Positions 3,058-38,747 of a stretch of 55,350 nt of DNA are shown here, piece by piece. This DNA is from Candidatus Omnitrophota bacterium. GTDB lineage: Bacteria; Omnitrophota; Gorgyraeia; Duberdicusellales; 4484-171. The DNA lies in the NCBI GenBank assembly GCA_021735445.1, contig JAIPHA010000007.1:1-55350 (forward strand). Reading direction: 5' to 3'. Under the pieces are notes generated by a model, which was given only the letters and a program-made list of their open reading frames with translations, was not told the DNA's origin and did not search any database. The position numbers were made by a program, and so were the translations under genes. How positions within the stretch are numbered: position 1 is the stretch's first letter; every line of letters starts with the position of its first letter.

Positions 3058-3189
3058 GGGGACGTTTCCCTCTGTTATAAGTCACTGTAAATAAATGAGT
3101 TATAAAGCAGTGTTTTCCGAAAATAAGCGAAAAATGCCAGTCTATAAGCCATTGGTTAGCAAGGGGTTATAAACGAGGGGAACGTCCCC
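3058..3189. mobile_element. 132-bp MITE/REP-like element, copy 2
   Basis: Same length and ends as 1666-1797: GGGGACGTTTCCCTC (3058-3072) and GAGGGGAACGTCCCC (3175-3189), with the central TTTTCCG hairpin partly degraded (CGAAAAA). It lies only 4 bp beyond the stop codon of the 3194-3718 gene. Both copies thus lie immediately 3' of a minus-strand gene, where the fold could also act on transcript 3' ends. Confidence 0.8.
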
Positions 3190-3193
3190 TTAA

Positions 3194-3718
3194 TTATCTG
3201 ATTATCTTAAAGGAGGCGGCTATGCCATCTAATACCGGTTCAACTTGGTTTTTCATTCCAAATGGCGTCCCTGCTTGAAAGATATAAAATTTAGATGTAT
3301 TTTCAACAGGCAAAATATATGTTTTTAAAAAATAACTAACGCTGCCCCTCCTGGATCTAAAAGTTATCGAATACCCCCTCCGGTATCCAAACATCGTTTG
3401 GTTTCTACTTATTAAAGTTGCCTGCATTTGATTAGTAAAATCAGAGATATAATTATTAATAAAGCCATTTATCCCTCTGTTAGAATTAGTAAGCCTGATT
3501 TGTAAACCGCTTTTACCATCGCCGCTATTGATGTTGGCAAGAACCACACCCGAACGATGTTTACTCGCATTCCAGGACGAAGGATATCTTATTGAATACC
3601 CATATCTGTTATCGACAAATTGCTCTGAAAGATAAAAAGAATAAGCGCTGGGTATAAACAATAAGCAGAGCAAAATGACTGTTAACATCTGAGATTGTAC
3701 AGCTATCTTGTTTTTCAT
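3194..3718 (-). CDS. Exported PsbP/DUF1795-like protein
   Basis: The 174-aa protein has a signal peptide (about 1-27, ending SAYSFY) and then one domain beginning FVDNRYGYSIRYPSSW. This 'F.d..yGFsi.yPs.W' opening is characteristic of the PsbP/Mog1/DUF1795 fold. The strand-rich remainder ends LDGIAASFKIIR, as is common for this family (final strand plus 'sF'). The function of bacterial members is largely unknown; they are usually secreted or lipid-anchored. It lies 19 bp downstream of the 714-aa Big-repeat gene on the same strand, so it may be the last gene of the MoxR-DUF58 operon. Confidence 0.65.
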   Translation of the reverse strand: MKNKIAVQSQMLTVILLCLLFIPSAYSFYLSEQFVDNRYGYSIRYPSSWNASKHRSGVVLANINSGDGKSGLQIRLTNSNRGINGFINNYISDFTNQMQATLISRNQTMFGYRRGYSITFRSRRGSVSYFLKTYILPVENTSKFYIFQAGTPFGMKNQVEPVLDGIAASFKIIR

Positions 3719-18494: not shown

Positions 18495-18517
18495 TTTATC
18501 TTCTTATTGACTTTAAA

Positions 18518-31934: not shown

Positions 31935-32089
31935 ATATGTATACGCTTTTTTGCCGCAGGCAAAACATTCTCCAGATATTACCTAAGAGAATACAGCGTA
32001 TCCATATAATGTATTAGACTCACGAATTACGATGAACTTTATAATGGCTGTTTAATTTTTGTAAGAATAGATAAATAATCAATTACAGG
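31935..32089 (+). repeat. Structured repeat unit A (ATACGC stem), first of a tandem pair before the helicase gene
   Basis: The unit starts at ATATG (31935-31939). Its basal stem ATATGTATACGC (31935-31946) pairs with GCGTATCCATAT (31996-32007), one mismatch, and encloses a GCC-GCA-GGC hairpin and an ATTCTC...GAGAAT hairpin. The 3' half (about 80 bp, GTATTAGACTCACG through AATTACAGG) is nearly identical to that of unit B. Unit D at 38479-38747 has the same ATACGC left arm. Confidence 0.85.
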
Positions 32090-32241
32090 ATGTATGTGAT
32101 ATCCGGCGCAGCCGGATCATTCTCTGGCTATTACCTAAGAGAATCTATCACATCCATATAATGTATTAGACTCACGAATTACGATGAACTTTATAATGGC
32201 TGTTTAATTTTTGTAAGAATAGATAAATAATCAATTACAGA
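32090..32241 (+). repeat. Structured repeat unit B (GTGATA stem), abutting the helicase start codon
   Basis: Basal stem ATGTATGTGATA (32090-32101) pairs with TATCACATCCATAT (32146-32159), enclosing ATCCGGC-GCA-GCCGGAT and ATTCTCT (32119-32125)/AGAGAAT (32138-32144). The conserved 3' half ends AATTACAGA, directly followed by ATATG (32242-32246), whose last three bases are the helicase start codon. Unit C at 38326-38478 is its closest relative. Confidence 0.85.
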
Positions 32242-32243
32242 AT

Positions 32244-34199
32244 ATGAAAAGTTATAAATTAAAACCTTATCAGAACAAAGTAAGCGTTGACTACCTAAAG
32301 GGCTTAAACCCTCAACAAAAAGAAGTGGTAGAAAAAGGTAACGGCCCTGCTTTGGTCCTGGCCGGAGCCGGAAGCGGTAAAACCAGGGTTTTGATTCACA
32401 GGCTCGCTTACCTTCTCCACCAAGGAATAAATCCAAAAAATATACTTCTTGCAACCTTTACTAACCGGGCTGCCGCCGAAATGACCCATCGGGCCGAAAC
32501 GCTTATAAATTCGAGCCTAAAAGGGCTTTGGTCAGGTACTTTTCACCATATCGGGAATCTGATTCTGCGCAAAGAAGCTAAAACCTTAGGCTATTCTTCT
32601 AATTTTTCAATTACCGACTCAGAAGACGCTAAAAGCTTAATTGATGACTGTATCCAAAATTTAGGTTATAACAAAAGGGAGAAAATGTTTCCCAAAAAAA
32701 GAGTTATCTATAATATTTACAGCTTATCGGAAAATTCCCAAACTGACCCTGATAAAATTATTGCGGATTTTTACCCTCACCTGGAGGAATACGCCCACCC
32801 TATAAAAAAAATCATCTCTTATTATCAGGATAAAAAAAAGCAAGCTAACCTTATGGACTTTTCTGACCTGTTAAGCAAATGGCTCCAGGTTTTACAAAAT
32901 CCGGAATTAGCCGAAAAATACTCGCAAATATTCCATTATATTATGGTTGATGAATATCAGGATACTAACAAAATTCAATTTGAGATTTTGAAAAAACTTT
33001 CTGCTCACCACAACAATATCCTGGTTGTAGGAGACGACGCCCAATCTATCTACTCGTTTCGAGCAGCGCAAATTAGCAACCTTCTGGATTTCCCGAAAAT
33101 ATTTAAAACCGATAAAATTTTCAAGCTAGAGACCAACTACCGCTCCAGCCCCCAAATCCTTAACTTAGCAAACCAAATAATACAACACAATGTTTATCAA
33201 TATCCGAAAAAATTAAAAGCTGTAAGAAAAGAATCCGAAACTCCCTGTTTAGTTAGCGCCAAAGATATTTACCAACAAGCAAAATTTGTTGGCCAGCATA
33301 TTCTCAAACTAAATGAAGAAGGCGTGCCCCTTTCTGAAATTGCAGTACTCTTTCGTTCCCGCTTTCAAGCTCTGGAACTGGAAATGGAAATGACAAAACG
33401 CAATATTCCTTATATCGTAAGAGGGGGCCTGCGTTTTTTTGAACAAGCCCATATCAAGGACACCCTTTCCTTTTTAAAGATTATAGTCAACCCTTATGAC
33501 GAAATATCTTTTAAACGAGCTCTTTCTCTCTACCGGGGAATCGGCAAAAATTATGCTTACCGAATCTGGAAAAGCTTGATAATAGAAAAAAATTCTCTAT
33601 ATCAAACTTTAGAAAAAATACCCAAAAGGCAAAAGGGAGGTTTTAAAGAATTCAGCAAATTATTTGAAAAATTAAAAAAACTTACCATCCCTGAAGACGC
33701 TTTAGGCGAAATTCTTAATATGTATAAAGAATACTGCCACTTGAGTTTCGATAACGCCGCAGAAAGGCTCATGGATTTAGATGAGATGGTGAAAATGTCA
33801 GGCAACTATTCTACTATTAAAAAATTCCTCCATGATATCGGCTCATACGAAGAATTTAAAGGAGAGAAGCGTCGAACTGAAGAAAAAAAAGAAGAAGAAT
33901 CCATAACTCTTACCACTATCCACCAGGCTAAAGGGCTTGAATGGGAAGCGGTGTTTATTATCGGCTTCTGCGAATATGATTTCCCTCACGCAAAAGCGCT
34001 TAATTCACAAAAATCTCTCGAAGAAGAAAGAAGGTTATTTTATGTAGCAGCAACCCGGACTAAATCTTTTCTTTATATAACTTACCCGCAAACTAAATTT
34101 AGTTATAAAAACGGAGTTATTATTACACAGCCTTCAATGTTTTCCCGTGAACTACCTCCTTATACCTATGAAGAAATAACCCTCGAAGAAGAGATATAA
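32244..34199 (+). CDS. UvrD/PcrA/Rep-family superfamily 1 DNA helicase
   Basis: This 651-aa ATP-dependent 3'-5' DNA helicase has Walker A LAGAGSGKTRVLIHRLAYLL (about 34-53), motif Ia TFTNRAAAEM, motif II VDEYQDTNKIQ, motif III GDDAQSIYSFRAA, motif IV ETNYRSS, motif V TIHQAKGLEWEAVF and motif VI ATRTK. It starts with a short Lys-rich extension and ends without the long PcrA C-terminal tail. The ATG at 32244 has no Shine-Dalgarno; it is inside an ATATG that ends a structured tandem repeat. The 3' end overlaps the convergent anti-sigma gene by 34 bp. A role in repair or replication restart is inferred. Confidence 0.92.
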   Translation: MKSYKLKPYQNKVSVDYLKGLNPQQKEVVEKGNGPALVLAGAGSGKTRVLIHRLAYLLHQGINPKNILLATFTNRAAAEMTHRAETLINSSLKGLWSGTFHHIGNLILRKEAKTLGYSSNFSITDSEDAKSLIDDCIQNLGYNKREKMFPKKRVIYNIYSLSENSQTDPDKIIADFYPHLEEYAHPIKKIISYYQDKKKQANLMDFSDLLSKWLQVLQNPELAEKYSQIFHYIMVDEYQDTNKIQFEILKKLSAHHNNILVVGDDAQSIYSFRAAQISNLLDFPKIFKTDKIFKLETNYRSSPQILNLANQIIQHNVYQYPKKLKAVRKESETPCLVSAKDIYQQAKFVGQHILKLNEEGVPLSEIAVLFRSRFQALELEMEMTKRNIPYIVRGGLRFFEQAHIKDTLSFLKIIVNPYDEISFKRALSLYRGIGKNYAYRIWKSLIIEKNSLYQTLEKIPKRQKGGFKEFSKLFEKLKKLTIPEDALGEILNMYKEYCHLSFDNAAERLMDLDEMVKMSGNYSTIKKFLHDIGSYEEFKGEKRRTEEKKEEESITLTTIHQAKGLEWEAVFIIGFCEYDFPHAKALNSQKSLEEERRLFYVAATRTKSFLYITYPQTKFSYKNGVIITQPSMFSRELPPYTYEEITLEEEI

Positions 34200-37639: not shown

Positions 37640-37738
37640 ACAAGTTACAAGTTTTAAGTCACAGGTCACAAGTTATATGTTATATGTCATAAGTCACATG
37701 TCACAAGTTAACATGTGACATGTGACTTGTGACTTATG
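37640..37738. repeat. Long heptanucleotide array with a switch of orientation
   Basis: Ten 7-mers of the ACAAGTY type (ACAAGTT, ACAAGTT, TTAAGTC, ACAGGTC, ACAAGTT, ATATGTT, ATATGTC, ATAAGTC, ACATGTC, ACAAGTT) occupy 37640-37709. After one extra base, four more follow in the opposite orientation (ACATGTG, ACATGTG, ACTTGTG, ACTTATG; 37711-37738). The two halves can therefore fold on each other. The array fills the gap between pgsA and pgpA. Confidence 0.85.
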
Positions 37739-37756
37739 GCCTTTAAATCCACGCTA

Positions 37757-38323
37757 TCAAAACGTCTTTATGATTTGCCGGTTAACCCAAAAATAGTAAA
37801 TGCCCGAAAAAAGGGTAATCGCAACGATATACCACATAACAATTGGAATTCCAAAATTATAAAGAAAATCGGTTATCTTTGCTTGAGGAAAGGTTTTAGA
37901 AAGGATTAAAAAAGAAAAAATGATTAATACTCCCGAAATTTGCGAAACAGTTTTATGCTTGCCGAGCCCTTGCGCGGCTAAAACTACTCCCTTACGTAAG
38001 CTGTAAAGGCGCAAGCTGGTTACGATAAATTCACGAAGCAAAATCGCAATCACCATCCAAACACTAATTAAACCAATTTCAACAAAGGCCGAAAAAACAC
38101 CAATTATTAAAATCTTATCGGCGATCGGGTCAAGAATCTTACCTAAATCAGTAGTATGGCCGTGTTTGCGGGCAAAATACCCATCCAGCCAATCGGTAAA
38201 AGAAGCCACTATAAATAGACAAAGCGCTGCTATATGAAATCCGAAAGTATTAAGCAAGATAAAACCTACACAAAAAAAGGCAAGAAATATTCGCAAAAAT
38301 GTGAGTTTATTGGAGATATTCAT
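37757..38323 (-). CDS. pgsA: CDP-diacylglycerol--glycerol-3-phosphate 3-phosphatidyltransferase
   Basis: The enzyme makes phosphatidylglycerol phosphate. The 188-aa protein has the CDP-alcohol phosphotransferase motif in DWLDGYFARKHGHTTDLGKI followed by LDPIADK (DGx2ARx8Gx3Dx3D), and six hydrophobic segments. It opens MNISNKLTFLRI, the family start. The ATG at 38321-38323 is part of ATATG that ends a structured tandem repeat; no Shine-Dalgarno is seen. pgpA follows downstream. Confidence 0.94.
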   Translation of the reverse strand: MNISNKLTFLRIFLAFFCVGFILLNTFGFHIAALCLFIVASFTDWLDGYFARKHGHTTDLGKILDPIADKILIIGVFSAFVEIGLISVWMVIAILLREFIVTSLRLYSLRKGVVLAAQGLGKHKTVSQISGVLIIFSFLILSKTFPQAKITDFLYNFGIPIVMWYIVAITLFSGIYYFWVNRQIIKTF

Positions 38324-38325
38324 AT

Positions 38326-38478
38326 CTTGTAATTGATTATTTATCTATTCTTACAAAACAAAACAGCCATTAAAAAGTTCATCATAATTCGTGAGTCTAA
38401 TACATTATATGGATGTGATAGATTCTCTTAGGTTTAAGCAAGAGAATTATCCGGCTGCGCCGGATATCACATACATAT
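38326..38478 (-). repeat. Structured repeat unit C (GTGATA stem), abutting the pgsA start codon
   Basis: Minus-strand homologue of unit B (32090-32241). Stem arms are 38465-38478 and 38407-38420, enclosing ATCCGGC-TGC-type and ATTCTCT/AGAGAAT hairpins, with a variable loop (TTGCTTAAACCTA). The conserved 3' half ends AATTACAAG and is followed by ATATG (38321-38325), whose last three bases are the pgsA start codon. Confidence 0.85.
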
Positions 38479-38747
38479 CTTGTAATTGATTATTTATCTA
38501 TTTTAACAAAACAAATCTGCCATTATAAAATTCATCACCGCAAGCTCGATGTCATTCTGAGGCGACTGCAAGGAGTCCTGAGCGAAGTCGAAGGGCGAAG
38601 CCGAAGAATCTCAAACCGTTGCGGAGATCCTTCGCCCTGAGCTTGCCCTGAGCGAAGTCGAAGGGGGCTCAGGATGACAAAAAAAATTGAATTCAGAATG
38701 ACACCATAGAAAAATTGTCTGCCTAGCGGCAAAAAGCGTATACATAT
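38479..38747 (-). repeat. Structured repeat unit D (ATACGC stem), interrupted by an insertion
   Basis: Read on the minus strand, the unit starts ATATGTATACGC (38747-38736) with a GCCGCTAGGC hairpin like unit A. The middle is replaced by a 152-bp inverted-repeat insertion (38551-38702), and the conserved 3' half resumes as GATGAATTTTATAATGGC and ends AATTACAAG before the ATATG of unit C. The order D-C here matches A-B at the other locus. Together with unit C and the array at 38801 it fills the 508-bp gap 38324-38831. Confidence 0.75.
38551..38702. mobile_element. 152-bp inverted-repeat insertion of the CTGAGCGAAGTCGAAGG family
   Basis: Ends GTCATTCTGA (38551-38560) and TCAGAATGAC (38693-38702) are perfect 10-bp complements. 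The 18-mer CTGAGCGAAGTCGAAGGG occurs twice inside (38578-38595 and 38648-38665), and a further CTCAGGATGAC (38668-38678) forms a nested end. This motif family is scattered in many bacterial genomes as non-coding palindromic repeats. It sits inside unit D, so it inserted later. Confidence 0.7.

Follow-up and report, generated by a model that had tools for sequence, protein, structure and literature searches.

A tandem pair of folded units before a uvrD-like gene in an Omnitrophota genome probably represents a miniature mobile DNA element with a four-base guide

The stretch of DNA analyzed here, referred to as the window, is a 55,350-bp contig of a Candidatus Omnitrophota bacterium (JAIPHA010000007.1; contig C6 of the 1.17-Mb genome G000). 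It carries a gene for a UvrD-like protein of 651 amino acids, and directly before this gene stand units A and B, a tandem pair of 153 and 154 bp with 91% identity from 31955/32107 onward. A first-pass annotation, made from the letters of the sequence, described a two-unit tandem repeat with basal stems ATACGC/GCGTAT (A) and GTGATA/TATCAC (B), a single T/C mismatch in both and two enclosed hairpins, as well as a third unit, C; all of these are present. Unit C, ahead of a pgsA-like gene, is itself the second member of a minus-strand tandem pair with unit D. We interpret the feature as probably two tandem units of a miniature mobile DNA element that is non-autonomous. The covarying fold described below strongly supports the annotation's reading, which was selection on a folded single strand; what the annotation missed is the mobile insertion at start codons and tRNA T-loops, the outer stem formed between target and element, and the occurrence of the element in at least 17 genera.

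Two empty sites locate the insertion precisely. The uvrD orthologue at locus L129 (81% protein identity) lacks the units and reads ...GATAATTCCTAAATTAAAAAAATATG^GAAAAATATAAATTAAAACC, or in shorter form ...AAAAAAATATG^GAAAAATATAAATTAAAACC, with the caret marking the junction, and the window reads ...GATAGTTCCTCAATTAACAAAATATG^307 bp^AAAAGTTATAAATTAAAACC. The insertion falls exactly between the ATG and codon 2, leaving the native leader to the left of the insert, which supplies an ATG of its own; beyond the ATATG word, no clear duplication of the target is seen. The second empty site is the tRNA-Ala(CGC) gene, which is intact in G004 and in G000 holds an element between TTTG and AACC, with the left 300 bp 93% identical between the two genomes. 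The last bases of the G000 element, ATGGAGCCGATCGGATTTG, repeat the 19 nt to its left and thus restore the 19 nt that its insertion cut off. This copy measures 155 bp if it is a single unit, but contigs break within it (114-base overlap), so an array is possible.

Similar insertions are found across the GTDB family to which the genome belongs. By BLAST, each of the five genomes in the genus has copies; they lie before rpmH, atpI, dnaG, pgsA, mnmA, aroC and glgA or within genes for tRNA-Ser and tRNA-Ala. Two covariance models, R1 and R2, give more than 150 matches in the family, in 24 and 25 of its 37 genomes, respectively, and R2 has none in five genomes of the sister family. Among 292 genomes of the class, a single genome outside the family matches (G115, one of ~278 others), on a contig edge, where transfer or contamination is possible. 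Two kinds of site are occupied: start codons of protein genes, and the T-loop in transfer-messenger RNA (tmRNA) genes and in tRNA genes of at least 14 kinds. Fifty-two right ends lie antisense in tRNA genes, 50 of them at 18 to 21 nt from the tRNA 3' end; two lie in tRNA-Leu in the sense direction, 13 to 14 nt from the 5' end; and about 20 lie at start codons, including those of rpmJ, rpmE and a sigma-70-like gene (names assigned by reading translations). A tRNA finder adds tmRNA genes, where copies are in or beside the tRNA-like end (L100 in G009 and L128 in G036, the latter judged by sequence only). The annotation knew of no named family with this layout, and Rfam indeed holds no covariance model, HEARO included, that matches at its gathering threshold, and no relevant one at E <= 5. 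Searches of virus, phage, plasmid and viral-contig sequences returned no relatives, and a search of the open-access literature returned no description; the element family is apparently undescribed.

Units are 124 to 155 bp long (median, 142) and share one order. First comes a Y-shaped head made of a basal stem and two hairpins; a single unpaired base, usually C, separates it from the 4-base guide CNNN, after which a body of constant length leads to the terminal word NNNG. Folded as single-stranded DNA, units A, B and C have z scores of -5.6, -4.3 and -5.6, respectively, equaled by none of 200 shuffles. In 18 copies from the genus, pairing holds in 97.6% of pair cells, and both sides are altered in 14 of 24 pairs, a count that none of 500 shuffles reaches. 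The 126 distinct family copies are 96.0% paired versus 61.5% when shuffled, all 19 head pairs are altered on both sides, and the covariation score is 0.768 versus 0.192. Genome-wide collection with a covariance model had been suggested as a check on the annotation, and across the collected copies both conditions that would have refuted it come out in its favor: changes in the stems are matched by compensating ones, and the copies keep their fold. The T/C "mismatch" marks the point of insertion: below it on the left, the bases (ATATG) are those of the target gene. The outer stem pairs target with element. The distance from guide to cut is 90 to 94 nt in copies with the core AATGTATTAGGC...CGATGAG and 82 to 88 nt in core-less copies, and it stays fixed while head length ranges from 41 to 68. 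Body and core are common to differently targeted copies of one genus. A promoter in the tail was suspected by eye, and a scan gave no support for one.

The guide matches the target. Across 111 unique copies, 86 guides are complementary to the left target word at all four positions (mean, 3.71 of 4), versus a mean of 2.35 and a maximum of 2.61 when guides were shuffled among copies 2,000 times. At least 12 target words have matching guides (TTCG/CGAA, TTTG/CAAA, CTTG/CAAG, GTCG/CGAC, ATCG/CGAT, GTTG/CAAC, GTGG/CCAC, GCGG/CCGC, TATG/CATA, AATG/CATT, GATG/CATC, CATG/CATG and others). Model R2 carries no target-guide pairing, yet it was built from matches gathered with R1, which scored that pairing; in copies first fetched after the R2 search (L220 to L239), the guide also matches, mostly at four of four positions. 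At the element's own right end the guide fits even better, perfectly in 75 of 84 copies, and where left and right words are unlike (the rpmH copies, unit B at uvrD, L120, L122, L220, L230 and L239) it is the right word that it fits. The base after the right cut (+1) is A in 84 of 84, a figure partly built in, since the script picked this set by its G^A junctions; these junctions nevertheless fall on tRNA T-loops and start codons that were located independently. Coordinates in the window are given in Table 1.

Table 1. Positions of the element units and their parts in the window
Feature	Position	Strand	Remarks
Left target ATATG	31935..31939	+	Original uvrD-like start codon ATG at 31937-31939; insertion begins right after it, by comparison with empty site L129
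Unit A, 153 bp	31940..32092	+	Stretch missing from the empty site
Unit A head	31940..32001	+	Basal stem 31941-31946/31996-32001 around two hairpins
Unit A guide CATA	32003..32006	+	Complementary to target TATG; follows unpaired C at 32002
Unit A core AATGTATTAG-N12-CGATGAA	32008..32036	+	Kept across genera in the core-bearing class
Unit B, 154 bp	32093..32246	+	Ends with ATG 32244-32246, the start codon uvrD now uses
Unit B head	32093..32153	+	Stem GTGATA/TATCAC; hairpins ATCCGGC-GCA-GCCGGAT and ATTCTC...GAGAAT
Unit B guide CATA	32155..32158	+	Matches right end TATG 4/4; own left target GGATG only 3/4
Right end of inserted DNA, ATATG	32242..32246	+	Following base is A
Unit C	38321..38473	-	Ends in pgsA-like start codon ATG (38323-38321); head 38473-38413; guide CATA 38411-38408
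Unit D, damaged	38474..38742	-	Left head arm 38742-38736 and tail 38536-38474 left; middle replaced by a different repeat
Left target ATATG of the C-D array	38743..38747	-	

The different repeat within the pgsA array, TGTCATTCTGAG...GGATGACA (window 38550-38705, minus strand), resembles the type associated with the REP-associated transposases RAYT. It also lies within an element unit at the dnaG array of G004 (L020).

Could these units simply be old structured RNA or DNA that the host maintains, for example for tRNA trailer processing or leader regulation, and that spread by duplication and homologous recombination without moving now? Housekeeping genes do adjoin the elements, and the copies in Gly-GCC (G000, G002 and G004), Val-TAC and Arg-TCT tRNA genes are apparently common to several species of the genus with their folds intact, which means that not all copies are recent; domestication of some tRNA copies is possible. 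Such an origin fits poorly with the two clean empty sites, with a precise NNNG^A junction whose guide complementarity extends over at least 12 target words, and with the tandem arrays, which are common (periods of 129 to 153 bp) and hold near-identical units. It also fits poorly with an insertion inside a gene: at L023 (G001:C74:1-72), an element head lies within a gyrA-like coding sequence after LEEEM and stays in frame until the contig ends inside the element. We therefore regard a purely host-maintained repeat as very improbable.

The right ends differ between the two kinds of site. Start-codon copies before uvrD, pgsA, dnaG and atpI carry one and the same tail, and the tail therefore moves with the element. 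This rules out a simple long target-site duplication for these copies, and a V-ATPase site as the source of the tail is ruled out by a G003 copy that has the same tail beside an unrelated native left flank. Copies in tRNA genes end in 18 to 19 nt that match the local tRNA, with a body and head like those of copies in the genus that have other targets. Two origins would fit: the element may duplicate ~19 bp of the target on insertion, or there may be lineages specific for one tRNA that home to that gene in other cells. The former would suit an RNA-mediated insertion, by target-primed reverse transcription or reverse splicing of a structured RNA, in which the guide would pair as RNA with DNA and the restored tRNA end would be a target-site duplication of ~18 to 19 nt. 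The direct repeat in tRNA copies does end at or near the mature tRNA 3' end, cleanly so over 19 nt at tRNA-Ala, and with duplication a guide change alone would retarget the element. However, the right end at uvrD is not copied from the native leader but is the tail common to the four genes, and reverse transcriptase (PF00078) occurs in only 4 of the 37 family genomes, none of them G000 to G004. This distribution also does not fit reverse transcriptase as the element's enzyme, and we consider insertion through RNA quite improbable.

The search for an enzyme covered four protein families in these genomes, and three of them, Y1 transposases, reverse transcriptases and IS110, do not fit. Y1_Tnp (PF01797) occurs in 19 of 25 carriers and 11 of 12 noncarriers, without enrichment (Fisher P, 0.39), and is absent from carriers G010, G017 (with 16 copies), G022, G023, G029 and G036; its pattern does not fit the element carriers. 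The IS110 DEDD recombinase (PF01548) is rare, in 6 of 37 genomes and 2 of 25 carriers, and its distribution is likewise mismatched. Stretches between neighboring elements in G027, G008, G004 and G028, where an autonomous version might lie, showed no obvious mobility gene on reading of open reading frames (ORFs), and no integrase gene lies inside the units themselves.

XerC and XerD, in contrast, are encoded in all 37 family genomes and are possible enzymes. On this basis one can picture site-specific recombination by a tyrosine recombinase, with a folded single strand as substrate, as for integron cassettes or CTX phage: XerC/XerD or a resident integrase would join a small circle at NNNG^A, and the 4-bp helix of target and guide would complete the recombinase site. 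Tyrosine-integrase elements typically target T-loops and restore the tRNA end, and the tandem arrays look like cassette arrays. Tyrosine integrase genes (363 to 393 amino acids) stand directly upstream of tRNA-Phe, tRNA-Pro and tRNA-Lys (L290, L291 and L292), and the first two of these tRNA genes bear the element. The tRNA-Lys gene does not, and such extra integrases occur at three tRNA genes only, in few genomes, so they were rejected as the element's enzyme. The attC core motifs GTTRRRY and RYYYAAC, which the annotation had not seen either, did not appear on reading of the aligned heads. The family has a dif-like site, TTCCGATAATATATCTTATGTTAACT, conserved in five genomes (G000:C5:9592-9617, G002, G013, G031 and G035, with one variant base); it was not found at element junctions and is unlike the element, which rules out the core AATGTATTAG as a mimic of the XerC/D dif site. 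To our knowledge, tyrosine integrases do not use a base-pairing guide. A tyrosine recombinase thus strikes us as unlikely, though it deserves attention.

Returning to the miniature mobile element, we can outline how it might move, given its precise insertion, conserved covarying fold, guide complementary to both ends, fixed spacing and restoration of the entered gene. The head of single-stranded DNA would fold and be bound by an enzyme acting in trans. The guide would pair with two copies of one NNNG word, the first to the left of the head and the second closing the unit on its right, and the enzyme would cut 3' of both, freeing a circle or a single-stranded unit; the single-stranded chemistry, the circle and the trans-acting enzyme are what we infer from this layout. 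The guide could then pair with an NNNG^A target elsewhere, where the unit would be joined in, and tandem arrays might arise from repeated insertion or unequal recombination. Copies would survive when their last bases restore the entered gene, be it the start codon of a protein, the last ~18 to 19 nt of a tRNA or tmRNA, or the first 13 to 14 nt of tRNA-Leu. One or two changes in guide bases would retarget the element.

Several points weigh against this interpretation. There is the failure to find an enzyme and, in particular, the lack of enrichment of Y1 transposases and their absence from the six carriers named above. There are also the tRNA copies that species appear to have in common. Movement is read from comparison of sequences, the guide stands 3' of the head whereas the guides of IS608 stand 5' of their hairpins, and the scheme gives no account of how one body gains 18 to 19 nt matching different tRNAs.

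Elements that move, or are thought to move, as single strands offer close parallels. IS608 inserts 3' of a tetranucleotide that stays in the left flank, where a 4-nt guide pairs with it and by its sequence sets the target; the element is recognized through hairpins and shows a preference for the base after the cut (PMC5934647). Our element is like the IS200/IS605 family (IS608 and ISDra2) in the word 5' of the cut paired with a short guide, the hairpin and the +1 preference. Unlike that family, with its separate left and right hairpins and guides, it has one Y-shaped head and a single guide 3' of it that fits both ends, which carry the same word; pairing is plain Watson-Crick, the gene end is restored, and there is no tnpA, tnpB or co-occurrence with Y1. 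REP elements mobilized by TnpA-REP (RAYT) are short, noncoding, structured repeats thought to move single-stranded, with a tetranucleotide beside the stem (PMC8266576). The element shares these traits, but in place of a constant GTAG 5' of the head it has its many different words, the word is complementary to the element, and the distribution of RAYT does not match.

Other systems resemble it in part. Integron cassettes with attC sites, including CALINs, have a folded single-strand site, small units in tandem and a precise junction; here, in contrast, there is no ORF, pairing chooses the target, and copies are scattered over tRNA genes and start codons. Integrative and conjugative elements and satellites that use tyrosine integrases also enter tRNA genes and restore the tRNA end, but this element is only ~140 bp long, has no genes, shows guide-target complementarity and, as one family, enters many tRNAs as well as start codons. 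IS110 elements share the reprogrammable choice of target by base pairing, but no two-loop bridge RNA is seen in the element, and carriers seldom encode PF01548. Rickettsia palindromic elements are structured repeats of ~100 to 150 bp tolerated inside genes, similar in size, structure and tolerance; the comparison is by description rather than by sequence, and we know of no NNNG^A targeting or guide in them.

The principle of a short guide, a hairpin and a word 5' of the cut is thus already known, and the architecture, the restoration of host genes and the natural range of targets appear to be new. It is tempting to see here a new class of mobile element, a Y-shaped single strand that uses one 4-nt guide for its own end and its target, possibly with a new enzyme in trans, and that repairs the genes it enters; we offer this tentatively, as less secure than mobility itself. 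Detailed knowledge of guide-paired targeting by short DNA elements comes for the most part from IS608 and ISDra2, which were retargeted by engineering. In the present element, natural retargeting is apparently recorded, with matching guides for at least a dozen words in dozens of copies from about 17 genera. If so, the element would be a minimal reprogrammable insertion unit of ~140 bp that lands after an ATG or in a T-loop without destroying the gene. It would also be a possible cause of contig breaks at tRNA genes in these genomes, and the evolution of a new target by an element would become testable.

The window holds two further repeats. The stretches 1666-1803 and 3058-3195 are 138-bp copies with 94% identity, the first with long inverted-repeat arms (62 nt, 71%), and are possibly another small mobile element. 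At 37673-37746 lies an abutting 37-nt inverted repeat, 81% complementary, with heptamer-like repeats (GACTTGT), and similar strings occur at 18516.
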